Of a stretch of DNA of 64,000 nt, positions 35,060 through 50,124 are shown one piece after another. Position 1 is the first letter of the stretch. Each line of letters begins with the position of its first letter. A model generated the notes under the pieces. That model was not told where the DNA came from. It searched no databases and worked only from the letters and a program-made list of their open reading frames with translations. The stretch comes from Haloterrigena turkmenica DSM 5511 (lineage in GTDB: Archaea > Halobacteriota > Halobacteria > Halobacteriales > Natrialbaceae): contig NC_013743.1 in the NCBI RefSeq assembly GCF_000025325.1, positions 1,674,001 through 1,738,000 of the forward strand. Direction: 5' to 3'. The position numbers and the translations under genes are program-made.

Positions 35060-35534
35060 TCGGGGGTGCAGTGCCGGTCGTCCGCGAGCGATCCGCGGAC
35101 CCACGGGCTCGTCCGGTTCGTCGTCTCTCGGGTTCGTCGACGCTGTCGGAGACCTTCCGAACGGACTTACAGTCGGCATCGAGTATCGATGTCCGCTGTG
35201 AGATGTGTGGACGTACCGAACGGCGGACTCGACGGATCGAAGGGAAACCGAAGTGTTCTGCTATCGTGGCAACCGGGAATCGCCACTCCCTCCCCAGCCG
35301 ATTCACTCGCTCCCGCTGGTCGCTCGTTCACCACTGGAAGACGCTTCACGTCTTTCAAGCCATTCGCTCGTGCGACTCGCGAAGACCTCGCACGGCTTCC
35401 CGCCGCGTCTTCGCTGTGCTCAGACGCGCCGTAAGCGCGCGCCACCACCACTGGATCGGCGCTCTCGAGCCGCTCTTCCCACCCCGTGGGAACTCTCGAC
35501 GGGTGAAATACCGGTCCGCCGTGTACGAACGGAT
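35060..35534. other. Non-coding region with inverted repeats
   Basis: No frame with haloarchaeal composition. It contains several imperfect hairpins, for example AAGACG..CGTCTT near 35338-35356 and CGTGCGA..TCGCACG near 35368-35394, and GC-rich decayed palindromic sequence resembling that at 12581-13337. Just before 35535 a TATAC-like box is not obvious. Confidence 0.5.
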
Positions 35535-36830
35535 ATGACCGACGAGACACCGCGGACGGACGAGGAGATCAGACGAGCGGTCGTCGATCGGGTCCGTGAG
35601 GTCGAGATCATGGGCGGCGATCCGATCGGCGAGCAGTTGATCGAGGACGTCGACGTCGCGGACGGGATCGTCACCTTCACCGTCGACTTCGAACCGGTCG
35701 GTCGCGTACTGGCCGACCGGTTGACCGACCAGCTTCGGGGCGCCGGGCTGGCGACCGACGGCGTCATCCACGTCCGGGTCGAGGCCGCCGGCTCCGACGT
35801 GCCCGAGACCGGGTTGCCGGTGTCGGGCGTCGACTCGATCATCGCCGTCGGCAGCGCGAAGGGCGGCGTCGGCAAGACGACGATCACCGCCGCGCTCGCG
35901 CGGGCGCTCGCCGAGGACGGCCTCGACGTCGGCGTCTTCGACGCGAACGTCTACGCGCCCGACGCGCCGGACCTCCTCGAGGCCGACGGGCCGGTCGCGA
36001 CGTCGCCGACGGGGAAGCCGATGCCCGTCGAAACCGACGACGGCATTCAGGTCGTCAGCATCGAACTGATCGCCGAGGACGGGCCGGTCGCGTGGCGCGG
36101 GGCGATGGTCCACGACGTCGTCAAGGACCTGCTGGGCAACGCCGCCTGGGACGACCGGGACGTGCTGCTCGTCGACCTGCCGCCGGGGATCGGCGACGCC
36201 GTCTACACGATCGTCCAGCAGGCGCCGCTGGACGGCGGTCTGCTGGTCTCCACGCCGACCGACGAGTGCGTACGGGCGACCCGACGGACCGCGGCGCTGT
36301 ACTCGGCCAACGACGTGCCGTCGATCGGCGTCGTGCCCAACATGGTCGGCGCGGCCGAGGGCGAGTCGACCCCCTTCGACGGCGACGCGCTCGCCGAGGA
36401 CGTCGCCGAGGCGGCCTACGCCGAGATCGACCCCGTCCCGTTCGATCCGGCGCTGCGCGAGCCGACCGCGCGCTCCTTCGCCGACCCCTCGAGCGCCGGC
36501 GAACGCGCGATCGATTCGCTCCGCGAGACCGTCCTCGAGTTCATAGAGACGGAGGGCGGACCGGCGGTCCCCGAGGACGCGGTCGACCTGCGCGGGCTCC
36601 CGCCCGAGAGCTGCCAGCGGCAGGTAGTCACCGAGTTCGGCGTGGCCGACGAGGAGCCGGTGTCGGTGGTGTTGCGGGGCGATCCCGACGACCTCGTCGA
36701 CGTCGTCGACGAGAGCCTCGCGCGCGACGGCCGCTCGCTCGAGCGGACCGATGTCGACGATCTGGGCTACGACGGCTGGCTGGTCGAACTCGAGGCGGCG
36801 GGTCGGTCGGCGGTCGAGCCGGCGACCTGA
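35535..36830 (+). CDS. Mrp/NBP35-type P-loop ATPase with extra C-terminal domain
   Basis: A 431-residue protein. The N-terminal MIP18/DUF59-like domain (TDEEIRRAVVDRVREVEIMG start) is followed by a deviant Walker A IAVGSAKGGVGKTTITAALA around residue 107 and LLVDLPPGIGDAVYTIVQQA around residue 205. This is the layout of Mrp scaffold/carrier proteins for iron-sulfur clusters. The CxxC pair that carries the cluster in many Mrp/NBP35 proteins is not visible. The C-terminal about 80 residues (LPPESCQRQVVTEFGVADEE, then SVVLRGDPDDLVDVV) form an additional small domain. It lies just upstream of the molybdoenzyme region, possibly helping Fe-S assembly. Confidence 0.85.
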   Translation: MTDETPRTDEEIRRAVVDRVREVEIMGGDPIGEQLIEDVDVADGIVTFTVDFEPVGRVLADRLTDQLRGAGLATDGVIHVRVEAAGSDVPETGLPVSGVDSIIAVGSAKGGVGKTTITAALARALAEDGLDVGVFDANVYAPDAPDLLEADGPVATSPTGKPMPVETDDGIQVVSIELIAEDGPVAWRGAMVHDVVKDLLGNAAWDDRDVLLVDLPPGIGDAVYTIVQQAPLDGGLLVSTPTDECVRATRRTAALYSANDVPSIGVVPNMVGAAEGESTPFDGDALAEDVAEAAYAEIDPVPFDPALREPTARSFADPSSAGERAIDSLRETVLEFIETEGGPAVPEDAVDLRGLPPESCQRQVVTEFGVADEEPVSVVLRGDPDDLVDVVDESLARDGRSLERTDVDDLGYDGWLVELEAAGRSAVEPAT

Positions 36831-37416: not shown

Positions 37417-40400
37417 ATGAGTGACGAGGAACCCGACGGGCTCGAGCTGACCCGTCGGGAACTCGGCGCCGCGGCGGCGGGTATCGCCGGCGCGTCCGGC
37501 CTCGGTTTCCTCGGCTACCGGCGGCTGACCGGCGAGGAAACCGCCGACGAGGACGGCGAGGGACCGATGAACCCCCTCGAGGAGTACCCAAACGAGGAGT
37601 GGGACCAGAAGTACCGCGACATCTGGGAGCCCGACGACTCCTACATGCTCACGTGTACGCCCAACGACACCCACAACTGCTACCTCGAGGCCACGATCAA
37701 GAACGGCCAGATCACGCGCCTCGGTCCCTCGATGAACTACGGCGAGGCGACCGACCTCGACGGCAACCAGGCCTCCCAGCGGTGGGACCCCCGCGTCTGT
37801 AACAAGGGGCTGGCGATGGTCGAGCGCTTCTACAACGAACGGCGCGTCAAGGCCCCGATGATCCGTCAGGGCTTCAAGCAGTGGGTCGACGACGGCTTCC
37901 CGCGCGATTCCGACGGCTCGATGCCCGAGGAATATGCCCGGCGCGGAGAGGACGACTTCGTCGAGGTCTCCCACGAGGAAGCCCACGAGTACGCCGCCCG
38001 CACCTTCCTCGAGCTCGCCGACCAGTACAGCGGCGAGAGCGGGATCCAGTCGCTGCTCGATCAGGGCTACGACGAGCGCGTCGTCGAGGAGACGCAGGGC
38101 GCCGGCGTCCGGACGATGAAGTTCCGCGGCGGGATGCCGCTGCTCGGCGTCATCAAGCTGTTCGGCCAGTACCGAAACGCCAACTCGATGGCGTTGCTGG
38201 ACAACTACGTCCGCGACGTTAGCGAGGACGAAGCCCTGGGCGCGATGGGGCTGGACAACTACTCGTTCCACACCGACCTGCCGCCGGGCCACACGATGGT
38301 CACCGGTCAGCAGACGGTCGACTTCGACCTCGCGAGCATCGAGTACGCGGACCACATCGTGCTCGACGGGATCAACTACCTGACCTCGAAGATGGCCGAC
38401 TGTCACTGGCTGACCGAGGCCAAACTGAAGGGGTCGAAGGTCACCGGGATCTTCACCGACTACAACGCGACGGCCTCGAAGTGCGACGAACTCATCACGG
38501 TCCGGCCGGCGTCGGACACGGCGCTGTTCCTCGGCGCTGCGCGCGTACTCATCGAGGAAGAGCTCTACGACGAGGAGTACGTCCGGCAGTTCACGGACCT
38601 CCCGCTGCTGGTCCGCATGGACGACAACGAACTGCTCCGCGCCAGCGACCTCTCCGCGGACTACGAGCCCGCGGACTTAGAGAAGACCGACGCCGTCGCC
38701 GACGACGCGGACCGCCCCGGCGTCGACGTGACGAACATCGACGATCAGGTCATCACGGAGGAGCTCCGCCGCGAGTGGGGCGACTTCGTCGTCCACAACG
38801 CCGAGAGCGGCGAGTTCGAGCCGGTCACGCGCGACGACATCGGCGACGACTTCGACGTTCCCGCGACGATCGAGGGCGAGTTCGAGATCGAGCTCGCCGA
38901 CGGCGAGACCGTCGAAGTGCGGACGGTGTTCGACCTGATCAAGGAACACCTCGTCGGCACCTGGGACCTCGAGTCGACCGCCGAAGTCACGGGGACCGAT
39001 CCGCAGGCGATCGAGAACCTGGCCCAGGACTTCGCGGACAACCAGCAGAGCACGATGCTGCTGACCGGGATGGGGCCGAACCACTACGCGAACGCCGACC
39101 AGCACGGCCGTGCGGTGTTCCTGCTGGCGTCGCTGACGCGGAACGTCGGCTACCAGACGGGGAACGTCGGTTCCTACTCCGGGAACTACCGGATGGCGTA
39201 CTTCAACGGCGTCGGCCAGTACGCCAACGAGGATCCGTTCGACGTCGAACTCGATCCCGAGGAGCCGGCCACCACCGAGAAGCGCTGGGACGCCCACTCG
39301 GCGCACTTCTACACGAACCTCGACAAGCCGCTGAAGGTCGACGGCGAGTACTTCCAGGGCGACTCGCACATGCACACGCCCACGAAGTCGATCTGGGTGT
39401 CGGGGTCGAACTCCATCCTCGGCAACGCGAAGGGGACCTACAAGATCATCGAGAAGGCCCTGCGCACCGGCGACATCGAGGCCTTCTTCACCAACGAGTG
39501 GTGGTGGTCGATGACCTGCGAGTACTCCGACATCGTCTTCCCGGCGGACTCGTGGGCCGAACACCACGTCCACGACATCACCGCCTCCGTCACGAACCCC
39601 TTCATCACGACGATGCCGGAGACGGAGATCGACCGGATCTACAACACGCTCAACGACACTCAACACTACAAGGGCGTCGCCGAGAAGCTCGCCGAACTCA
39701 CCGGCGACAGTCGCTTCGAGGACTACTGGGCGTTCATCGACGAGGAGGAGTACCAGGCCAAACCCTACATCCAGCGCATCTTCGATCACTCCAACGCCGT
39801 CAAAGGGTACGACGTCGAGAACCTGCTGGAAGACGCCCGCGAGGGGACACCGGCGATCATCATGACCCGGACCTACCCCAAGCACGTCGGCAACGAGCAG
39901 ACCCAGGACTCCCAGCCCTGGTACACGAAGACCGGGCGCCTCGAGTTCTTCCGCGAGGAGGAGGAGTTCGCCGAGGCCGGCGAGCACATCCCCCTCCACC
40001 GGGAGCCGATGGACGCGACGCCCTACGAGCCGAACGTCATCGTCGACGACAGCGACAGTCCGGTGATCGCGCCCGAGACCCCCGGCGACCGCGGCTGGGA
40101 CAGCGAGGCGAAGGCCCGCGACACCAACGACCGACAGGTCCGCAATGAGATCCGGTCGCCGTCGGAACTGGTCGACACGACCCATCCCCTGACCGATGTC
40201 GACGACGGCTACGACTACGTCTACATGACGCCGAAGTACCGCCACGGGACCCACACCTTCGGCGCCGACCTGAAGGACATGGCCGTCTGGTGGAGCAACT
40301 TCGGCGACATGGGCCGGGAGACGGAGCGCGACTCCTTCGACCAGCGCAAACCGTTCGTCGGCGAGGGCTACGTCGAGATGAACCCCGAGGACGCCCGCGA

Positions 40401-40965
40401 GGAGGGGCTCCAGGACGGCGATTACGTGTGGGTCGACGCCGACCCCTCGGACCGTCCGTACCCGGGCTACGACCCCGACGACGAGAAGACTGAGTACACG
40501 CGGGCGATGATGCGAGTCCGCTACCAGCCGAGCATCCCGCGAGGGGTCACGCGGAGCTGGATGAACGTCAGCCAGACCTCCCACAAGTCCTACGAGGCCC
40601 AGGAGGAACGCGAGGACGGGAAGGCCCAGTCCGAGGACACGAACTACGTGTCGATGTACCGCAGCGGCGGTCACCAGTCGATGACCTCGACGTGGCTGCG
40701 ACGGACCTGGCTGACCGATACGCTGCCCCGAAAGGGCATGTTCGGACAGAACGTCGACGTCGGCTTCGAGCCCGACGTCCACGCCGCCAACGGCGCGCCC
40801 AAGGAGTCGTTCGTCAAGATCGAGAAGGCCGAAGACGGCGGCGTGAACGAGGACGGCGAGCCCGATGGTGACTGGCGACCAGTCGGAGAGGGCGTCCGTC
40901 CGACCCAGGAGAACGACCGGATGAAACAGTACCTAGAGGGCGGTTTCACGAGCGAATCAGACTGA
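37417..40965 (+). CDS. Tat-exported type II molybdoenzyme catalytic subunit, NxrA/NarG-like
   Basis: An 1182-residue DMSO-reductase-superfamily protein. The N-terminal LTRRELGAAAAGIAGASGLG is a Tat-like signal, so the enzyme acts outside. A [4Fe-4S] motif reads C80-x3-D84-x3-C88 with a further C128 (DPRVCNKG). The Asp at 84 takes the place of a Cys; the usual order is H/C-x3-C-x3-C. D287 (FHTDLPPGH) is in the position of the Asp that ligates Mo in type II enzymes. RVKAPMIRQGFKQWVDDGFP and RTMKFRGGMPLLGVIKLFGQ resemble the nitrite oxidoreductase group as I remember it. Length is near NxrA (about 1150), longer than the usual haloarchaeal NarG. The gene starts an operon with the beta subunit (12 bp gap). 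Substrate unproven. Confidence 0.88.
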   Translation: MSDEEPDGLELTRRELGAAAAGIAGASGLGFLGYRRLTGEETADEDGEGPMNPLEEYPNEEWDQKYRDIWEPDDSYMLTCTPNDTHNCYLEATIKNGQITRLGPSMNYGEATDLDGNQASQRWDPRVCNKGLAMVERFYNERRVKAPMIRQGFKQWVDDGFPRDSDGSMPEEYARRGEDDFVEVSHEEAHEYAARTFLELADQYSGESGIQSLLDQGYDERVVEETQGAGVRTMKFRGGMPLLGVIKLFGQYRNANSMALLDNYVRDVSEDEALGAMGLDNYSFHTDLPPGHTMVTGQQTVDFDLASIEYADHIVLDGINYLTSKMADCHWLTEAKLKGSKVTGIFTDYNATASKCDELITVRPASDTALFLGAARVLIEEELYDEEYVRQFTDLPLLVRMDDNELLRASDLSADYEPADLEKTDAVADDADRPGVDVTNIDDQVITEELRREWGDFVVHNAESGEFEPVTRDDIGDDFDVPATIEGEFEIELADGETVEVRTVFDLIKEHLVGTWDLESTAEVTGTDPQAIENLAQDFADNQQSTMLLTGMGPNHYANADQHGRAVFLLASLTRNVGYQTGNVGSYSGNYRMAYFNGVGQYANEDPFDVELDPEEPATTEKRWDAHSAHFYTNLDKPLKVDGEYFQGDSHMHTPTKSIWVSGSNSILGNAKGTYKIIEKALRTGDIEAFFTNEWWWSMTCEYSDIVFPADSWAEHHVHDITASVTNPFITTMPETEIDRIYNTLNDTQHYKGVAEKLAELTGDSRFEDYWAFIDEEEYQAKPYIQRIFDHSNAVKGYDVENLLEDAREGTPAIIMTRTYPKHVGNEQTQDSQPWYTKTGRLEFFREEEEFAEAGEHIPLHREPMDATPYEPNVIVDDSDSPVIAPETPGDRGWDSEAKARDTNDRQVRNEIRSPSELVDTTHPLTDVDDGYDYVYMTPKYRHGTHTFGADLKDMAVWWSNFGDMGRETERDSFDQRKPFVGEGYVEMNPEDAREEGLQDGDYVWVDADPSDRPYPGYDPDDEKTEYTRAMMRVRYQPSIPRGVTRSWMNVSQTSHKSYEAQEEREDGKAQSEDTNYVSMYRSGGHQSMTSTWLRRTWLTDTLPRKGMFGQNVDVGFEPDVHAANGAPKESFVKIEKAEDGGVNEDGEPDGDWRPVGEGVRPTQENDRMKQYLEGGFTSESD

Positions 40966-40976
40966 GGTGACTCACA

Positions 40977-42170
40977 ATGGCAGAAGTTTACAACTGGCAG
41001 ATCGGCCGCGAGATGGAGTACCCGTACCCGGAAGCGCGTCCGGAGAAACAGTGGGGCGCAGTGTTCGACCTGAACAAGTGTATCGCGTGCCAGACGTGCT
41101 CGCTGTCGTGTAAGACGACCTGGACCAACAACGAGGGCCAGGAGCACATGTTCTGGAACAACGTCGAGACCAAGCCCTACGGCTCCTACCCGCTGCAGTG
41201 GGACGTCGAGATCCTCGACCGACTCGGCGTCCACGAGTGGGGGTCGGACGGCGTCTACGACGGCGACACGATCTTCGAGGCCCGCGACTTCGACTGGGAG
41301 TCGATGGCGGCCGACGACGATCCGGAAACCATGCACAGCGAGGGGATCGAGGGCTTCCGTCCCGACGACGAGGACTGGGCCCAACCGAACCTCGGCGAGG
41401 ACGAACCCACCGGTCAGGAGTTCGAGTCGGATACCCACATCGACGAGGACCACCACCCGACGTGGTTCTTCTACCTTCCCAGAGTCTGTAACCACTGCAC
41501 GTTCGCCGCCTGCGCCGGCGGCTGTCCCGTCCAGGCCATCTACAAGCGCCAGGAGGACGGTATCGTCCTGCTCGACGAGGACAGCTGTCAGTCCTTCCAG
41601 GAGTGCGTTCGCGCCTGCCCCTTCGGGAAGTCGATCTACAACTCCGTCGCGATGAACTCCCAGAAGTGCGTCGGCTGCTACCCGAAGGTCGAGCAGGGGA
41701 AGGTCCCGCAGTGCTTCGAGAACTGTCTCGGCAAGATCCGGATGCACGGCTGGGTCAACACCCCCGAGAACGCCGACACCTCCGCGCCCGTCGACTACAT
41801 GGTCCACGACGCCGAGGTCGCGCTCCCGCTGTACCCCCAGCTGGGGCTCGAGCCCAACGTCTACTACATCCCACCGATCAACGTCCCGACGGACTACTTG
41901 GAACAGATGTTCGGCCCGGGCGTCGAGGAAGCCCAGGAGACCTACCGGAAGGCCCGCCGCGGCGACGAGGAGTACCGCAAGCTCCGCGGCGTCTTGCACC
42001 TGATGGGATCGACCGAGTGGCGCATCGAGGAGTTCGAAGTGACCGACGAGGAAGCGATCGGCTACGACCAGGACGGCCACACGGTCGCCCGCGTTCCGAT
42101 GGAGGAACCGACCTACCAGCGCGATCGCTTCGACAGCCAGCACGACGCCTACCGGCTCGACATCGCGTAA
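40977..42170 (+). CDS. Four-cluster iron-sulfur subunit of the molybdoenzyme (NxrB/NarH-like)
   Basis: A 397-residue ferredoxin-like electron-transfer subunit. It has four cysteine sets: CIACQTCSLSC (residues 35-45), CNHCTFAACAGGCP, CQSFQECVRACP, and CVGCYPKVEQGKVPQC with CFENCLG. In the third set the second Cys position is Phe, as the Trp or Tyr in NarH/NxrB, which predicts one [3Fe-4S] cluster. The start MAEVYNWQIGREMEYPYPEA and HMFWNNVETKPYGSYP recall NxrB. There is no signal, so it would be carried out with the alpha subunit. A GAGGTGA ribosome-binding-like word precedes its ATG. Confidence 0.9.
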   Translation: MAEVYNWQIGREMEYPYPEARPEKQWGAVFDLNKCIACQTCSLSCKTTWTNNEGQEHMFWNNVETKPYGSYPLQWDVEILDRLGVHEWGSDGVYDGDTIFEARDFDWESMAADDDPETMHSEGIEGFRPDDEDWAQPNLGEDEPTGQEFESDTHIDEDHHPTWFFYLPRVCNHCTFAACAGGCPVQAIYKRQEDGIVLLDEDSCQSFQECVRACPFGKSIYNSVAMNSQKCVGCYPKVEQGKVPQCFENCLGKIRMHGWVNTPENADTSAPVDYMVHDAEVALPLYPQLGLEPNVYYIPPINVPTDYLEQMFGPGVEEAQETYRKARRGDEEYRKLRGVLHLMGSTEWRIEEFEVTDEEAIGYDQDGHTVARVPMEEPTYQRDRFDSQHDAYRLDIA

Positions 42171-42198
42171 CGACTACGAACCCACCATAGCCACACCA

Positions 42199-43011
42199 AT
42201 GTCACGACCAGACCACCACGTTCACCGCGCGCGACTGTACAAGCTCGCGTCGATGGCGTTCGACCGGCCGACCGACGACCTTCGCGAGGCGATCCGCTCC
42301 GACGAGTTCGACGACCAGCTCGTCGAGTCCGCCGCGGCGCTCGGCGACGACGACCTCCGCGAGCACGCCGAGACGGTCGCCGAGTTGAGCCCCGACGACG
42401 CCGACGAGATCGAGGACTGCTACTCGACGTACGCCGCGCTGTTCGGCTTCGAGCAGGGCGGCGAGATTCAGCAGTACGAGGTCGAGTACGGTTCGGGCAC
42501 GCTCGTGACGAACACCGACACGCTCGCCGACATCGCCGGCTTCTACGGTGCGTTCGACCTCGACCTCGAGGACGGCAACCGCGAGCGGGTCGACCACCTC
42601 TGCATCGAACTCGAGTTCGTCTCCCACCTGGCCCTGCAGACGGCCTACCTCGAGCAGTCGGACGATCAACAGGGCGTCGACATCGTCTCGAACGCCCAGG
42701 CGGACTTCCTCGAGGATCACCTCGGGCGCTGGGTCCCGCGGTTCCGAGAGACGGTCCACGACGACGCCGACGACCCGTTCTATCGGGCGCTCGCGGATCT
42801 CGTGGTAGCGCTGGTCGAGACTGACGCCGACCGGTTCGGGATCGAACCGGACGTCTTCCCCGAGGTGCCGCCGGCGCCGACCGAGGGGCTCACCGGCGGC
42901 GGCGACGGGGACTTCCGGTGTGGAACCTGCGGCTCGAACGGATCGGGGACGCCGACCCCCTCGCCCGGCAGCGCCGAGATGCCGATGGGTGACCGCGACG
43001 GCCCGCACTGA
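42199..43011 (+). CDS. TorD/NarJ-family molybdoenzyme chaperone
   Basis: A 270-residue mostly helical protein. The order LYKLASMAFDRPTDDLREAI, YSTYAALFGFEQGGEIQQYE, TLADIAGFYGAFDLDLED, DHLCIELEFVSHLALQTAYL and DDPFYRALADLVVALVE follows the TorD/DmsD/NarJ chaperone family. These bind the Tat signal of the catalytic subunit and hold it for cofactor insertion. The last about 40 residues are disordered and contain one CGTCGS pair, absent from most members. It follows the beta subunit by 28 bp and completes the structural part of the operon. Confidence 0.88.
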   Translation: MSRPDHHVHRARLYKLASMAFDRPTDDLREAIRSDEFDDQLVESAAALGDDDLREHAETVAELSPDDADEIEDCYSTYAALFGFEQGGEIQQYEVEYGSGTLVTNTDTLADIAGFYGAFDLDLEDGNRERVDHLCIELEFVSHLALQTAYLEQSDDQQGVDIVSNAQADFLEDHLGRWVPRFRETVHDDADDPFYRALADLVVALVETDADRFGIEPDVFPEVPPAPTEGLTGGGDGDFRCGTCGSNGSGTPTPSPGSAEMPMGDRDGPH

Positions 43012-43224
43012 CGGCGACAGCGGCCTCGCGGCGGGGCGTCCGTCGAGCGGCGTCGTCGACCCGGTCTCGAGTGGCAGCGCCGTCACGCCGTGACCCGCAC
43101 CCGTCTCGTGCCACAGTTCGGGTGAGCGCCATCGCCGCCGCTGACCGGAACGACGATACCCGCGACGGCGCGTGCCCGCGTCGAACGAGTCTTCCGTTCG
43201 TCCCCCGAAGCGACCCTACCAGAG

Positions 43225-43752
43225 ATGAGTCAGGAGCCACCGTTTCGCGTCGTCTGTCTTGCCGGGCCGAGCGATTCGGGGAAGACCACGCTCGTCGAAC
43301 GGCTCGTTCCGCGACTGGCCGATCACGGCCGCGTCGCGACGGTCAAGTCGATCCACCACGACATCGAGATCGACACGCCGGGCGCCGACACCCACCGCCA
43401 CCGAACCGCGGGCGCCGAGACGGTCGTCGGCGTCACCCCCGAACTCACGTTCGACATCACCGCTCGCGGCAAGCGCGACCCGCCGGACCGATCCGACGGT
43501 GACGCCGTGCTCGAGGGCGAGGCCGACGATCCGGAGCTCCGAGCGCTCGCGAGCACGCTCCAGCGCCTCGAGGAGCGGGGATACGCGTTCGTCGTCGTCG
43601 AGGGGTTCTCGGCGGCCCCATTGGCGACGATCCTCGTCGGCGACCGCGACCCGAGTGCGGTCGGCGGCCCCGTCGTCGGCCGCGGCGCAGACGACCTCGA
43701 GGCGCTCGTCGAGACGATCCGCGGGCTCGAGCCCCTCATCAAGCGCGAGTGA
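43225..43752 (+). CDS. mobB: Molybdopterin-guanine dinucleotide biosynthesis protein MobB
   Basis: A 175-residue P-loop GTPase. The Walker A is AGPSDSGKTTLVERLVPRL near residue 12; SIHHDIEIDTPGADTHRHRT around residue 46 is the conserved MobB segment; VVVEGFSAAPLATILVG is near residue 120. MobB helps attach GMP to molybdopterin to make the bis-MGD cofactor that a type II enzyme needs. Its position between the chaperone and the metal-uptake genes supports a dedicated cofactor supply. Confidence 0.9.
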   Translation: MSQEPPFRVVCLAGPSDSGKTTLVERLVPRLADHGRVATVKSIHHDIEIDTPGADTHRHRTAGAETVVGVTPELTFDITARGKRDPPDRSDGDAVLEGEADDPELRALASTLQRLEERGYAFVVVEGFSAAPLATILVGDRDPSAVGGPVVGRGADDLEALVETIRGLEPLIKRE

Positions 43753-43968
43753 CCGGGCCTCCGCTGGCCGACGGCGACGAACGAACGTGGGTCGACAATC
43801 GAACTCGTGCCGATCGTCGATCTACCGCCACCGCGGGCCGTCCCGCGATCGAGTACCGGGCGTTCCTCGGATCGATCGAGTACCCGCTATCGAAACCTGT
43901 TTCGGTTATCTTCCCGCAAAATAGGAACGAGAACCAGTTATATTGAACGGCGGGTTCGAGTGAGACGT

Positions 43969-44940
43969 ATGGTGACTCGCGGCGACGATCCCCGGACGAA
44001 ACGCGGTGCCGGACCGGCCGGCGGCGGTCGCCGGGCCTTTCTCGCGGCCGCGAGCGCGACGGCGGCCGGCATCGTCGGGACGGCCGGCTGTCTCGGCACG
44101 GCCGACCGCGTGCGGGTCCTCTCGGCCGGGAGCCTCGCCGTCGCGCTCGAGGAGACGGTCGGTCCGGCCTTCGAGTCCGAGATGGGACGCAGCTATCAGG
44201 GCGAGTACCACGGGTCGACCGTCGTGATGCGGATGATCGAGGAGGGGACCAAACACCCTGACGTGGTCGTCAGCGCCGATACCGAGCTGTTGCGAGACCG
44301 GCTCTACCCCGAGCGGACGGACTGGGACGTCGAGTTCGCCGCTAACGAGGTCGGCATCGCCTACGATCCCGACACGGCCCTCGGCGGCCGACTCGCGGGG
44401 GACGAGCCGTGGTACGAGGTCATCGTCGATGCCGGTGCGAACGACCTCGCGATCAGCGATCCCGACCTGGACCCGCTCGGCTACCGGGCCGCCCAGCTGT
44501 TCGAACTCGCCGAGCGTCGACACGATCTCGAGGGGTTTCGCGAGGCGATGCTCGATACCGCCTCCCGCGAGCCCGACGAGTCGAAGCTACTGACCGGCGT
44601 CGAGGCCGGAAACCGCGCCTGTGCGGTCGTTTACCGGAACATGGCCGTCGATCACGAACTGCCGTTCTGCGAGTTGCCCGACGCGTACAACTTCGGGGAT
44701 CCGACGCACGCCGAGACGTACGCGACGGCGACGTACACGACCGACGAGGGGTACGCGGCCCGCGGTCGGCCGGCGGTCTACAACGCGACGGTCCGGGCCG
44801 ACGCCGACAACCCCGACGCCGGCCGGGAGTTCGTTTCCTTCCTGCTCGAGGAGCCCGCGCTCCTGGAGGACTGCGGGCTCCGCGTCGGCGATGCGCTCCC
44901 GCGATCGAACGGGAACGTGCCGGAGGCGATCGAGCCGTGA
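43969..44940 (+). CDS. Molybdate/tungstate-binding lipoprotein (ModA/WtpA-like)
   Basis: A 323-residue binding protein with a Tat-lipoprotein start (GGGRRAFLAAASATAAGIVG, then TAGC as lipobox). The mature part begins DRVRVLSAGSLAVALEETVG and continues GSTVVMRMIEEGTKHPDVVV, DTELLRDRLY, GIAYDPDTALGG and NDLAISDPDLDPLGYRAAQL, which fits ModA/WtpA oxyanion binders. It captures molybdate or tungstate outside the cell. A TTATATTG box lies about 27 nt before the ATG. The stop overlaps the start of the permease gene. Confidence 0.88.
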   Translation: MVTRGDDPRTKRGAGPAGGGRRAFLAAASATAAGIVGTAGCLGTADRVRVLSAGSLAVALEETVGPAFESEMGRSYQGEYHGSTVVMRMIEEGTKHPDVVVSADTELLRDRLYPERTDWDVEFAANEVGIAYDPDTALGGRLAGDEPWYEVIVDAGANDLAISDPDLDPLGYRAAQLFELAERRHDLEGFREAMLDTASREPDESKLLTGVEAGNRACAVVYRNMAVDHELPFCELPDAYNFGDPTHAETYATATYTTDEGYAARGRPAVYNATVRADADNPDAGREFVSFLLEEPALLEDCGLRVGDALPRSNGNVPEAIEP

Positions 44941-45776
44941 CCGATATCGGTGCGCGGACGGACGATGCGAACGCGTCCCCGTTCGGGAGCGGCCTCGAGC
45001 GCCTGACTGACGGGATGGCCGTTCCGGCACTGCTAGGCGCGGTGTTGCTCGCGTACTTCGTCGTCCCGTTCGCCGTGTTCTTCGCGCAGGTGGGCTCGGT
45101 CGACGTGATCGGCGGCCTCGCCGACCCCGCCACGCGAGACGCAATCAGGACCTCGCTGGTGACGGCACCGATCTCGACGGCCGCCGCGACCGTCTTCGGC
45201 GTCCCGCTCGCGTACGTCCTCTCGCGGGCCAACTTTCGCGGCAAGCGCCTCCTCGAGGCCGCCGTCTCGCTGCCCCTAGTCCTGCCGCCGATCGTCGGCG
45301 GCGTGATGCTGCTGACCGTCGTCGGCCGGTATACGCCGATCGGTTCGACGGCGGCGGCGCTCGGCGTGCCGCTGACCGACAGCTACGCCGGCGTGATCCT
45401 CGCCCAGACGTTCGTCGCCGCGCCGTTTCTCGTCGTCACCGTCCGCGCCGGCTTCGACGACGTCGATCCGCGCGTCGAGGAGGCCGCCCGGACGCTGGGG
45501 TACGGGCGCCTCGAGACGGTCCGACTGGTCTCGTTGCCGCTGGCGCGAAACGCCATCGCTGCGGGGATCGTCCTGACGTTCGTCCGGGCACTCGGCGAGT
45601 TCGGCGCCACGATGATGGTCGCGTACAACCCGCGGACGATGCCGACGCGCATCGACGTCTTGCGAATCGCCCGCGGTCTCGAGGCGATCGTCCCGATCGC
45701 GCTGGCGCTACTGGTTATTACAGTCGGCGTGGTCGCGCTCGTTCAGGTGCTCGTCGGGTCAGCGCGTCGGTACTGA
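44937..45776 (+). CDS. Molybdate/tungstate ABC permease (ModB/WtpB-like)
   Basis: A 279-residue permease starting at the GTG that overlaps the stop of the binding-protein gene. Six hydrophobic helices. PLAYVLSRANFRGKRLLEAA and the EAA-type loop EEAARTLGYGRLETVRLVSL around residue 183 are typical of ModB/WtpB, and FVRALGEFGATMMVAYNP near residue 218 is the conserved oxyanion-permease end. It forms the channel with the binding protein. No ATPase gene follows; the next gene is a regulator. Confidence 0.88.
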   Translation: MTDIGARTDDANASPFGSGLERLTDGMAVPALLGAVLLAYFVVPFAVFFAQVGSVDVIGGLADPATRDAIRTSLVTAPISTAAATVFGVPLAYVLSRANFRGKRLLEAAVSLPLVLPPIVGGVMLLTVVGRYTPIGSTAAALGVPLTDSYAGVILAQTFVAAPFLVVTVRAGFDDVDPRVEEAARTLGYGRLETVRLVSLPLARNAIAAGIVLTFVRALGEFGATMMVAYNPRTMPTRIDVLRIARGLEAIVPIALALLVITVGVVALVQVLVGSARRY

Positions 45777-45896
45777 CGGTGAACCGGTAATAGCTTATGG
45801 AAGACGTGCTTGCAAGATACATCAGTAATAGTGTAATTCGGTTTCATCACCGCTAATCTCTTTGGAAATGGGGTTATTGGGATCCCCGTCGTACTC

Positions 45897-46577
45897 ATGG
45901 TTGAACTCATGACATCGATCGCAGACATCGAGATTCCGGCCGACGGAACCGGAACCGGCGAGCTGTTCGAGGCCGTCCCCTCACTGACCTGTGAAATGGA
46001 GCGCGTGATCGCCTCGAGCGGCCACGGCCTCTGGCTGTCGGGCCCATCCCAGGAGGATATCGAGACGGCGCTGAACGACGCCTCGGCGATCGGTGCCTAC
46101 GCGCTGATCAACAGCGAGGACGACCGGTGGCTCTACGACATCGAGTTCGAACCGGACACCATCGACATCTTCGAGCTGATCCTCGAGGAGAACGGCACCG
46201 TACTGAGCGCCTCGGCCTCGAGTGACACGTGGCTGCTGAGCATTCGGTTCGCCGACCGCGAGAGCGTGAGTTCGCTCTACGACCGGTTCGACGAGGCCGG
46301 CGTCACGCCGACGATCGTTCGCCTGTTCGATCTCGCAGAGGAGACGAAAAGCCAGTGTGGCCTCACCGCTCGGCAATACGAGACCCTCGTCGCGGCCATC
46401 GATCACGGCTACTTCGAGATCCCCCGTGAGGTCTCGATGCAAGAGCTGTCGGAGGAGCTCGGCATCTCCCACCAGGCGCTCTCCGAGCGCCTCCGCCGGG
46501 CCTATCGCGCGCTCGTCACCTCGGAGCTAAACGTCTCCGAGGACGAGACCGTGGCCCCGCCGGTGCCCTCGAACTGA
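45897..46577 (+). CDS. Bat-type (HTH_10) transcriptional regulator
   Basis: A 226-residue protein with the bacterio-opsin-activator-type helix-turn-helix at its C terminus: LTARQYETLVAAIDHGYFEI, PREVSMQELSEELGISHQAL and SERLRRAYRALVTSEL. The N-terminal about 155 residues form a ligand- or signal-sensing domain without Cys clusters of the NarO type. Such regulators adjoin respiratory operons in haloarchaea (DmsR, NarO), so control of the molybdoenzyme cluster is a reasonable inference. A second start at 45909 is possible. Confidence 0.85.
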   Translation: MVELMTSIADIEIPADGTGTGELFEAVPSLTCEMERVIASSGHGLWLSGPSQEDIETALNDASAIGAYALINSEDDRWLYDIEFEPDTIDIFELILEENGTVLSASASSDTWLLSIRFADRESVSSLYDRFDEAGVTPTIVRLFDLAEETKSQCGLTARQYETLVAAIDHGYFEIPREVSMQELSEELGISHQALSERLRRAYRALVTSELNVSEDETVAPPVPSN

Positions 46578-47030
46578 GCAGGTCAACACTGGTCCAGCCG
46601 ACTCGCGGTTCCGCCGGCCACTTCCGGCGGCACTCGATGTTTTCGCATCGGCATCACACGGTTCTCGCAGTTTGACACCCGTTGATCTGTTGGGCGCGTA
46701 GCGGCGTCCTCCGAGAGGTGTAGCCGTTGTATTCAGCGTTCCGTGTGTGCTGTTGAATTCAGCGTCCCGCGTAGACCGTTCATCCTGTAGACGACTGACA
46801 GAACCGAGGTCAGAGAGACAACTGGAACGCGTCGGAGAGTGGTGGGACAGTCGGCACGCTTCGGTCCGCGTGAGCGACGAGTAACGCGTTCCGTATCCGG
46901 GACGCTTCTCCGTAGGATAGAATGTTACATCACTGGTTCAATTGGCCAAACATCATCACAAATTCCATGTAAAATCCATTTCGTTCGTTGAACCAGAACG
47001 GAGTTACGAAGTCGTGAATAACAGCCAGTG
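46578..47030. other. Intergenic region with a short direct repeat
   Basis: No coding frame. GTTG[T/A]ATTCAGCGT[T/C]CCG-like 20-mers occur at 46726-46745 and 46752-46771 (26-bp period, three differences). The last about 90 bp before 47031 are AT-rich and hold the promoter of the NapH-like gene. Confidence 0.5.
46726..46771. repeat. Two-copy 20-bp direct repeat
   Basis: GTTGTATTCAGCGTTCCGTG at 46726 and GTTGAATTCAGCGTCCCGCG at 46752 differ at three positions. They could be regulator sites or a remnant of a transposon end; there is no way to tell from this window. Confidence 0.45.
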
Positions 47031-48389
47031 ATGGCAACAGAGGATCAACGGTCGAATCGAACTACCACCGATCGCACCGAATCGAATCGTAAGATCGTCA
47101 TTACACGGAATCGGGTATTTCGGTTCCTATTCACGAATAAAAACGTTCAGCACGCGGTCAACCTGATTACGGTCGCGATTTTCTTCTACGCGATCTATCG
47201 GGCCGCGGTGGGCCCGACGGACTCGAGCGCGAACTTCGGGAACGTCGCCTTTTTCGGCCTCTGGTGGGCCCCAGTCATGGTTCTCGGCCTCGTGTTTCTC
47301 GGACGGATCTGGTGTTACGTCTGCCCCATGGGAGCCATCGTTCGGTTCACTCAGCGATTCGGTCTCCACCGTCACTTCCCGATGTACACGCGGAAATGGC
47401 TCGTCTTCGGGCTCCCCGTCTCCGTTCTCTCGCTGACTGCGCTTACGTTCGCCATGGCTCGGTGGCCGATGTACAAAGTGGGCGTCGCGTACACGCCGCG
47501 ACTCATCCCGGTGTACTGGCTCACCATCCTGGGCGTCGCCGTCGGCGTCAGTCTCGTCTACCAGCGACAGGCTTTCTGTCGGTATATTTGCCCCGCCACG
47601 GGCGTGATGAGCGTGACCTCGAAGTTTTCGCCGCTCGAGATCGCTCAGAACAGGGACACCGGCGTCGCCTGTGCCACCCTCGAGTACAAGAGCGACTTTC
47701 TGAGCACTGACCGCCGGTGTACGGCATGTATGAAGTGTACGACCGAACAGCCCGAGGAGGACGTGGAGTTGCGGTTTCGCTGGCCGGGCGCGAAAGTCGT
47801 CACCGAACGCATTCCGCTCGTGGACGAAGCGCTTATCGCGCTGCTCATTTGGGCCGTATTCCCAATCGATCACGTGCTCGGTGACGCCGTCGAGGGGATG
47901 GCGGTCGTTCAGCGGTTGCCGGGAGTGCTCTCGCCGACCGCGGCCTACCTCATCAGCATCGCGGCGACGATTATCGGATTTACCGCCGTCAACCGACTGG
48001 CGAGCGGTTGGGGCGGTATCGACTGGGAGCGGTCGTTCACGAAGTTCGGGCTCGCCTACGCCCCGTTGGGCATCATGTTCACGCTCGGGTCACACGCCAT
48101 CGGCGGACTGCTCGAAGACGGCGGGCACGCGTTGAACGTGTTCGCTCGAGGACTCGGGCTTCCACTGGGTCTCCCCGCGGGAGCGAGCCCAGAACTCGTC
48201 TCGGCCTGGGAGCAGTTTTTCGTCACCGGCTGGCTCTGGCTCGCCGTCCTCTGGAGCGCGCTAATCGCCTGGCAGGTAGCGAAAACGATGACCGATTCGA
48301 GAGAACGCGCACTGAAAGCGTTCGCGCCCCACGCTGCACTGATGACGGGGAGTACCTACGTCGTCGCCGCCGTCCTCGCAACGCACTGA
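47031..48389 (+). CDS. NapH/CcoG-like membrane polyferredoxin
   Basis: A 452-residue membrane protein with about ten hydrophobic helices. Two membrane-edge CxxxCP-type motifs (GRIWCYVCPMGAI near residue 98 and QAFCRYICPATGVM near residue 185) are followed by DRRCTACMKCT near residue 237, a Cys set for [4Fe-4S] binding. This is the arrangement of NapH/NosR-type quinol-oxidising ferredoxins. The C-terminal half adds further helices. It could feed or drain electrons for the exported molybdoenzyme, which has no haem-b subunit gene nearby; that link is inference. Start taken at the ATG one codon after a GTG. Confidence 0.83.
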   Translation: MATEDQRSNRTTTDRTESNRKIVITRNRVFRFLFTNKNVQHAVNLITVAIFFYAIYRAAVGPTDSSANFGNVAFFGLWWAPVMVLGLVFLGRIWCYVCPMGAIVRFTQRFGLHRHFPMYTRKWLVFGLPVSVLSLTALTFAMARWPMYKVGVAYTPRLIPVYWLTILGVAVGVSLVYQRQAFCRYICPATGVMSVTSKFSPLEIAQNRDTGVACATLEYKSDFLSTDRRCTACMKCTTEQPEEDVELRFRWPGAKVVTERIPLVDEALIALLIWAVFPIDHVLGDAVEGMAVVQRLPGVLSPTAAYLISIAATIIGFTAVNRLASGWGGIDWERSFTKFGLAYAPLGIMFTLGSHAIGGLLEDGGHALNVFARGLGLPLGLPAGASPELVSAWEQFFVTGWLWLAVLWSALIAWQVAKTMTDSRERALKAFAPHAALMTGSTYVVAAVLATH

Positions 48390-48465
48390 TACCGATCCGC
48401 GCTCGTCGCTTTCCCTCGAGACACGGACTAGTCATCGTTATGAATCCGGCGACTGACATTCGAGT

Positions 48466-49335: not shown

Positions 49336-50124
49336 ATGTCCCCACAGTTTACCGACGACGATATCGGCAAGACCGTCGTCAACGCGAACGGCGAGGAGGT
49401 CGGCCTGATCGCGGACGTCGAACACGGTACCGCGCACGTCGAACCGGATCCGGGAATCACAGACACGATCAAAGCCAAACTCGGCTGGGGCGGAACCGAC
49501 GAGGACACCTACCCGCTCCAGGAGGGCTCGGTGGCCCGCGTCACGAACGACGAGGTCCGCCTCGAGAGCGATCTCTCCGGCAGCGCCGGTGGCGGCGCGA
49601 CCAGCGCCGGCGGCGCGACGGATATGGACACGGATCGGACCACGACGACCGACCGTAGCGACGACGACCTGATCGGTGACGACGACGACCGTCGCTCCGA
49701 CGACGACGGCCTCATCGGCGACGATAACGACGATTCGCTGATCGGTGACGACAACGACCGTCGCTCCGACGACGACGGCCTCATCGGTGACGACAACGAC
49801 CGTCGCTCCGACGACGACGGCCTCATCGGCGACGACAACGACCGCACCTCCGATGATGACGGACTCATCGGTGACGACAACAACGACGACTCGCTGATCG
49901 GTGACGACAACGACCGTCGCTCCGACGACGACGGCCTCATCGGCGACGACAACGATCGCCGCACCGATGACACTGATCGTCGTACCGACGATGACTCGCT
50001 GATCGGTGACGACGACGATGACGGTCTCATCGGTGACGATGACGACGATGATTCGCTGATCGGTGACGACACCGACCGCGACTCCGACGATGACGACGAT
50101 CGCATCGGCAACGACACGCGCTAG
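49336..50124 (+). CDS. PRC-barrel protein with acidic LIGDD repeat tail
   Basis: A 262-residue protein. Residues 1-80 are a PRC-barrel (DDDIGKTVVNANGEEVGLIA, then DTYPLQEGSVARVTNDEVRL). After a Gly/Ala/Thr linker, residues 110-262 consist almost only of Asp, Gly, Leu, Ile, Asn and Arg in repeats built on LIGDD. Eleven LIGDD motifs occur, in a 14-residue form (LIGDDNDRRSDDDG) and a 9-residue form (LIGDDNDDS), then DRIGND. The tail is extremely acidic and probably unfolded or Ca-binding (inference). No function is known. Confidence 0.85.
   Translation: MSPQFTDDDIGKTVVNANGEEVGLIADVEHGTAHVEPDPGITDTIKAKLGWGGTDEDTYPLQEGSVARVTNDEVRLESDLSGSAGGGATSAGGATDMDTDRTTTTDRSDDDLIGDDDDRRSDDDGLIGDDNDDSLIGDDNDRRSDDDGLIGDDNDRRSDDDGLIGDDNDRTSDDDGLIGDDNNDDSLIGDDNDRRSDDDGLIGDDNDRRTDDTDRRTDDDSLIGDDDDDGLIGDDDDDDSLIGDDTDRDSDDDDDRIGNDTR
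49669..50070 (+). repeat. Coding tandem repeat (LIGDD units)
   Basis: Eleven units built on CTGATCGGTGACGAC or CTCATCGG(T/C)GACGA(C/T), spaced by 27 or 42 bp. The mixture of CTG and CTC, and GGT and GGC, shows independent drift. They lie inside the PRC-barrel gene's tail. Confidence 0.8.

Follow-up and report, generated by a model that had tools for sequence, protein, structure and literature searches.

A gamma-less NxrA-type molybdoenzyme encoded in Haloterrigena turkmenica and related haloarchaea

The nitrite oxidoreductase (NXR) of the anammox bacterium Kuenenia, KsNXR, catalyses both directions of the nitrate/nitrite conversion (PMC8387239). In this enzyme the haem subunit serves as the exit for the electrons. 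The NXR of Nitrotoga and a periplasmic enzyme proven to be a nitrate reductase have been placed in one clade, which is sister to the anammox/Nitrospira type, and archaeal members of the superclade as well as nitrite oxidation have been proposed for thermophilic archaea (PMC6050957). In KEGG, narG and nxrA form one orthology (PMC9765009, PMC11052009). Here, we describe a locus of the haloarchaeon Haloterrigena turkmenica DSM 5511, situated in a window of 64,000 nucleotides (the whole stretch of DNA analysed; contig NC_013743.1, positions 1,674,001 to 1,738,000), which encodes a molybdoenzyme of the NxrA type. The NxrA superclade is already known; described here is its haloarchaeal clade, in which the gamma subunit is missing. 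Among the publications searched, none was found to recognise this clade as NxrA-type or to mention that gamma has been lost, and a published tree figure might include a haloarchaeal row. The locus fairly likely encodes a nitrate/nitrite oxidoreductase that faces outwards, works reversibly and is of bacterial origin. It would act mainly as a nitrate reductase, having lost gamma and relying on a partner encoded elsewhere in the genome.

The similarity of the catalytic alpha subunit to the Kuenenia enzyme extends nearly from end to end. In a phmmer search of solved structures, Kuenenia NxrA (7b04_B) was matched with 752 bits over residues 52-1176, whereas PcrA (164 bits) and NarG (~107 bits) were matched in pieces only; the identity to Kuenenia NxrA is 39%, the C-terminal tail included. 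The predicted structure of alpha is closest to 7b04 as well, with query-normalised template modelling (TM) scores of 0.80-0.82 compared to 0.57-0.58 for PcrA and 0.55-0.58 for NarG, at a mean predicted local distance difference test (pLDDT) value of 75; the prediction is poor for the N-terminus and for some regions surrounding the cofactor. The residues C67, D71, C75, C115, N70 and D275 are named in the structure paper of the Kuenenia NXR (PMC8387239), and all of them have counterparts in alpha. These are the ligands of the iron-sulphur cluster FS0, three cysteines and one aspartate (C80, D84, C88 and C128), the substrate asparagine N83 and the molybdenum ligand D287. Of these, D84 is near-invariant among 32 relatives, while in the alignment motif table the FS0 ligands of classical NarG and ClrA start with a histidine followed by a cysteine. 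Furthermore, a twin-arginine motif (LTRREL, residues 11-16) and a dedicated TorD-type chaperone predict that alpha is a molybdoenzyme exported by the twin-arginine translocation (Tat) pathway.

Enzymes of type II are catalytically flexible, PcrA and ClrA belong to the same wider family, and promiscuity among such enzymes has been noted (PMC8400030), so that a reducer of another oxyanion, for example chlorate, perchlorate or selenate, has to be considered. However, PcrA and ClrA are distant, and alpha falls outside their clade both by phmmer scores and in both alpha trees described below. The asparagine at the position of N83 is shared with NarG, whereas ClrA has a glycine there, and no chlorite dismutase-like gene was recognised at the locus. 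This makes another oxyanion an improbable substrate.

The phylogenetic placement was obtained from a main tree of 86 alpha subunits, 25 of them haloarchaeal; on the NXR side the trees covered anammox and other planctomycete enzymes, without Nitrospira, Nitrospina, Nitrotoga and Hydrogenobacter. All 25 haloarchaeal sequences fall into a single group (support 100), which arises from within a clade comprising Acidobacteriota, Planctomycetota, Myxococcota, Actinomycetota and one Omnitrophota row (support 100). This mixed clade, here called clade 2, is sister to anammox NxrA and other planctomycete enzymes (clade 1; support 99), whereas classical haloarchaeal NarG groups with NarG, PcrA and ClrA. 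A smaller alpha tree under another model gave the same outcome, and the beta tree showed the same outline with some nodes less supported. Alpha and beta group with anammox NxrA and NxrB to the exclusion of NarG, PcrA and ClrA (support 96-100) and, judged from these trees, are members of the NxrA/NxrB superclade. Within it, the haloarchaeal enzyme is placed outside the anammox-type NXR clade and in its sister clade: in the approximately unbiased (AU) test, forcing the haloarchaea together with the anammox clade was 90 log units worse (p-AU 0.00055), and forcing them together with classical haloarchaeal NarG was 530 log units worse (p-AU 3e-41). A preliminary description of the locus, made from the DNA alone, had quoted alpha and beta motifs, which are indeed present, and had judged both subunits to resemble the periplasmic NXR group more than classical haloarchaeal NarGH. 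The scores, trees, AU test and predicted fold bear this out, and no grouping with haloarchaeal NarG or with dimethyl sulphoxide/trimethylamine N-oxide reductases occurred. The proposed nesting next to anammox NxrA held for the superclade; the exact position turned out to be the sister clade, in line with the AU test and with the lack of an eight-residue insertion in beta. As an observation apart, many non-anammox Planctomycetota carry an NxrA that is 56-69% identical to that of Kuenenia, some of them with a cysteine in place of the aspartate at FS0.

These results also bear on a survey from 2021, in which six longer NarGs of Natrialbaceae were counted and no other difference was reported (PMC8400030). 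According to this, the enzyme would be an ordinary haloarchaeal NarG which is merely longer. Here, the distant position of classical haloarchaeal NarG in the AU test, its histidine-ligated FS0 and its different operon, which includes a Rieske protein, a cytochrome b and a gamma subunit, render this reading very improbable. Instead, the six longer proteins of the survey are probably members of the NxrA-like family. It is the common descent that is disfavoured by the tree; a nitrate-reducing function could still be shared.

The beta subunit supports this placement. Compared to solved structures, it scores 330 bits against Kuenenia NxrB (7b04_A) and 203 bits against PcrB, and its 15 cysteines fit the pattern of four clusters, three 4Fe-4S and one 3Fe-4S. 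It lacks the eight-residue insertion of anammox NxrB, and in its motif CIACQTCSLSC a cysteine is found at the position of NxrB Asp45. Among the haloarchaeal and clade-2 betas in which the pattern could be recognised, the spacer between two cluster motifs comprises 6 residues, compared to 14 residues in nine clade-1 planctomycete betas; the longer form is also seen in the alignment of Kuenenia NxrB. Thus, the split into clades 1 and 2 is supported by a discrete character in addition to the trees.

A further difference to bacterial enzymes concerns the gamma subunit. A haem-b gamma of the EB_dh type follows directly after beta, at most 2.2 kb after alpha, in 55/62 bacterial relatives; of the remaining ones, one has its best gamma match elsewhere and six loci comprise little downstream sequence. 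In two clade-2 bacteria (L144, L145) the gamma frame continues through adjoining subunits with 711 and 931 residues, which are possibly fused or translationally coupled. In contrast, gamma is present at none of 25 haloarchaeal loci, where three matches (L044, L047, L053) were not counted because of their chaperone position and a query frame running past gamma. Neither the whole genome of H. turkmenica nor 24 of the 32 carrier genomes contain any EB_dh protein; five of the other carriers encode a longer EB_dh protein at another place, in two an EB_dh gene lies near an enzyme of the HbG family (see below) and one shows a weak, broken match. Each of the five genomes used as controls, which carry classical NarG or HbG, contains EB_dh. 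Thus, the haem-b gamma of the bacterial relatives has been lost in the haloarchaeal lineage. Since gamma is lost, the redox partner would be a different, unlinked carrier, and none of the genes at the locus was recognised as an electron-transfer partner.

Three candidates for such a partner were considered and rejected. An unlinked EB_dh gamma is not available in H. turkmenica and 24/32 carriers, and a cytochrome b of the classical NarG type (NarC) elsewhere in the genome is absent from 25 of the 27 carriers checked, H. turkmenica included. A NapH-like membrane protein encoded downstream, conserved at none of the 25 loci, was dismissed as a replacement for gamma.

Full-length alpha is present in 32/394 sampled haloarchaeal genomes, six of which contain two copies. 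Natrialbaceae, the family of H. turkmenica itself, account for 29 of the carriers, which include Haloterrigena salina, Halopiger djelfimassiliensis, Natronococcus, Natrialba, Natronorubrum, Halobiforma, Natrinema thermotolerans, Halorubrum trapanicum and Halovenus carboxidivorans; Halobiforma nitratireducens has two copies. Beyond the haloarchaea, no archaeon in a sample of the whole phylum matched alpha at E<=1e-60, while full-length bacterial relatives number in the hundreds and at least 574 relatives were confirmed overall. A transfer from bacteria fits both this absence and the many bacterial relatives, and the enzyme was probably acquired by haloarchaea in this way. Classical NarG was detected in 0/32 carriers, whose best hits to it were either a member of the HbG family or the NxrA-like gene itself. 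In 24/32 carriers, compared to 184/362 non-carriers, a NirK exceeding the family cut-off was present (Fisher p 0.009, a test which ignores kinship; carriers passing the cut-off were judged by E-values).

Some further copies were observed. A stand-alone alpha C-terminal piece of 231 residues with 62% identity (G100:C1:1243544-1244194) is apparently a remnant. Viral contigs yielded one alpha fragment only, which is 57% identical to alpha residues 52-162 and lies on an IMG/VR contig that is possibly host DNA (L194). On plasmid 2 of Natronococcus occultus (L138), a copy of alpha is found at a place where no gene is annotated; it lies near an annotated cbb3-type oxidase subunit I (~1088 aa) and ric, an iron-sulphur repair gene, which suggests a nitric-oxide context.

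For the mechanism, we propose that alpha, carrying a bis-molybdopterin-guanine dinucleotide (bis-MGD) molybdenum cofactor and the aspartate-ligated FS0, would be loaded with the cofactor by the TorD-type chaperone and would pair with the four-cluster beta in the cytoplasm. Tat would then export alpha and carry beta along as a passenger, and at the outer face of the membrane two electrons would be exchanged via beta between nitrate/nitrite at the molybdenum and the partner. Nitrate/nitrite chemistry is favoured because of the clade, the conserved asparagine and the lack of a classical-type nitrate reductase in the carriers. The enzyme more likely runs mainly towards nitrate reduction, because the hosts are chemo-organotrophs with NirK; the enzyme would work in place of classical haloarchaeal NarGH and feed NirK. 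Some Haloterrigena have been described to reduce nitrate to nitrite without gas (PMC8530250). As a guess, the unlinked carrier might be a halocyanin or a membrane quinol/cytochrome protein. MobB, WtpAB and the regulator encoded at the locus would be optional genes for cofactor supply and control.

Several points weigh against this proposal. To our knowledge, no activity has been measured for any member of the haloarchaeal clade or its bacterial neighbours. The association of NirK with the carriers is weak and uncorrected for kinship, and since few Natrialbaceae have classical NarG in any case, the mutual exclusion may be due to chance there. Furthermore, without gamma no route from the quinol pool to nitrate is visible, and the clade could have shifted to another oxyanion.

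The opposite direction would mean a working nitrite oxidase, which oxidises nitrite outside the cell and passes the electrons on to halocyanin and a terminal oxidase, either to supplement the energy supply or to detoxify nitrite. The superclade shared with anammox NXR and the identical active-site and FS0 residues fit this, and nitrite-oxidising archaea have been raised for the sister clade of Nitrotoga (PMC6050957). Nevertheless, the enzyme lies outside the verified NXR clade in the AU test, both the NxrB insertion and NxrC are missing, the carriers are described as chemo-organotrophs (PMC8530250), the co-occurrence with NirK suits denitrification equally or better, and no high-potential partner is linked at the locus. 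We therefore regard nitrite oxidation as unlikely. A more speculative form, in which Natrialbaceae and their relatives would oxidise nitrite in hypersaline habitats with a gamma-less archaeal NXR that hands electrons from beta directly to a blue-copper protein, without NxrC or cytochrome c, is judged unlikely too.

The genes of the locus are collected in Table 1. All eight genes listed from alpha to the NapH-like protein were found as previously described, on one strand, by reading frames, hidden Markov models (HMMs) and homologues.

Table 1. Genes of the H. turkmenica locus; coordinates refer to the window.
Feature	Coordinates	Strand	Evidence
P-loop nucleoside triphosphatase (NTPase), Mrp/ApbC/NUBPL-type with extra C-terminal domain	35535..36830	+	PF10609 E 2.5e-50
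Catalytic alpha subunit, NxrA-superclade molybdoenzyme (by sequence), 1182 aa	37417..40965	+	reading frame, HMMs, homologues
Iron-sulphur beta subunit, NxrB-like, 397 aa	40977..42170	+	NxrB 7b04_A 330 bits
TorD/NarJ-family chaperone	42199..43011	+	TIGR03482 E 6.1e-29; PF02613
MobB, molybdopterin-guanine dinucleotide biosynthesis accessory protein	43225..43752	+	TIGR00176 90.9 bits, cut-off 76.2
WtpA/ModA-like oxyanion-binding lipoprotein, start uncertain	43969..44940	+	TIGR03730 E 4.6e-39, below cut-off; PF13531
WtpB/ModB-like molybdate/tungstate ATP-binding cassette (ABC) permease	44943..45776	+	TIGR01581 228 bits, cut-off 210
BAT + HTH_10 regulator (bacterioopsin-activator type)	45897..46577	+	PF04967, PF15915
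NapH-like polyferredoxin, membrane protein, outside module	47028..48389	+	NapH family E 3e-6

The limits of the module were drawn from gene linkage at 25 related haloarchaeal loci. Alpha, beta and the chaperone, whose genes are separated by short gaps, are linked in 25/25 loci and are the sole universal members. MobB is linked in ~10, WtpAB in 5 and the BAT/HTH_10 regulator in 6 of the loci, the latter at the same place and with 78-98% identity. The P-loop NTPase upstream, omitted from the preliminary description, is part of the module because it adjoins alpha in 21/25 loci. Its predicted fold is closest to ApbC (8zkc), and an extra C-terminal domain begins near DLRGLPP. A role as an ordinary Fe-S carrier is doubtful, since the CxxC of the carrier members is missing and cysteines are present at positions 245 and 360 only. 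In comparison to H. salina, the conserved block starts at 35473 and ends at 46643, just past the regulator, with 94% identity; the sequence is unrelated from 46644 to 48463 and collinear again from 48464. The NapH-like gene, which had been counted as a member, is found at 0/25 loci, lies in this break of collinearity, and belongs to a family present in 19/394 haloarchaea, mostly without the enzyme and with no tie to it. For these reasons it is a private neighbour, an insertion or replacement confined to the H. turkmenica genome. Nor is the module self-contained, as had been supposed: besides gamma and an electron-transfer partner, an ATPase for the WtpAB transporter pair is lacking among the genes of the locus.

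The NapH-like gene, located between the regulator and an enoyl-CoA hydratase gene, has a GC content of 0.616 against 0.553 for the flank, which was described as lower. Further downstream (49336-50124), a protein of 262 aa contains many LIGDDDDR-type repeats, whose copy number differs in H. salina.

Two enzymes that are merged by annotation as narG/nxrA are set apart here, and the longer 'NarG' of Natrialbaceae from 2021 is probably a bacterial-derived enzyme of the NxrA superclade without the haem subunit. If its direction were known, it would represent either a new haloarchaeal nitrate respiration or a culturable case of archaeal nitrite oxidation. The carriers also offer a natural experiment, available in culture, on how beta passes on electrons without gamma.

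Among the known systems, the classical haloarchaeal NarGH (Haloferax larsenii, Halomicrobium, Halarchaeum) shares the exported type II enzyme, beta and the TorD chaperone, and the nar operon of H. larsenii also contains a P-loop NTPase. However, the identity amounts to ~30% over part of alpha, FS0 is ligated by a histidine, and the Rieske protein, cytochrome b and gamma of the classical operon are not among the genes of the H. turkmenica locus. HbG, named after Halobaculum, was observed as a third haloarchaeal family of type II molybdoenzymes of ~1070 aa with TorD and an EB_dh gamma (L121 and L137, a Halobaculum plasmid; L122-L126, L133-L135); in the alpha tree, this family branches as the sister group of the entire NxrA superclade. 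It resembles the H. turkmenica enzyme in the start of beta; alpha, in contrast, is 35-36% identical over a part, FS0 (CHPNCTQSC) has a cysteine instead of the aspartate, and gamma is present. The Nitrotoga NXR and the periplasmic nitrate reductase (pNAR) of Hydrogenobacter, compared by description only, show a similar ~40% identity to Kuenenia NxrA, a cysteine at NxrB Asp45 and no eight-residue insertion, the latter being stated for Nitrotoga NxrB itself (PMC6050957). Here, the molybdenum motif ends with QM in Nitrotoga and with QT in the haloarchaeal alpha, and gamma is missing in haloarchaea. The anammox NXR (Kuenenia NxrABC, 7b04) agrees in alpha from end to end, in the aspartate-ligated FS0, the substrate asparagine, the molybdenum aspartate, and the start and cluster pattern of beta. 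It differs by its own clade, the NxrB insertion and NxrC, and the identity of 39% is to be compared with ~60% among verified NXRs (PMC8387239). Apart from gamma, the closest relatives are the clade-2 NxrA-like enzymes of Acidobacteriota, Planctomycetota, Myxococcota and Actinomycetota (L064-L120, L180-L187), which are 47-52% identical to the haloarchaeal alpha over the full length and share with it the FS0 motif CxPNDTHNC, the short beta and one fully supported clade (support 100).

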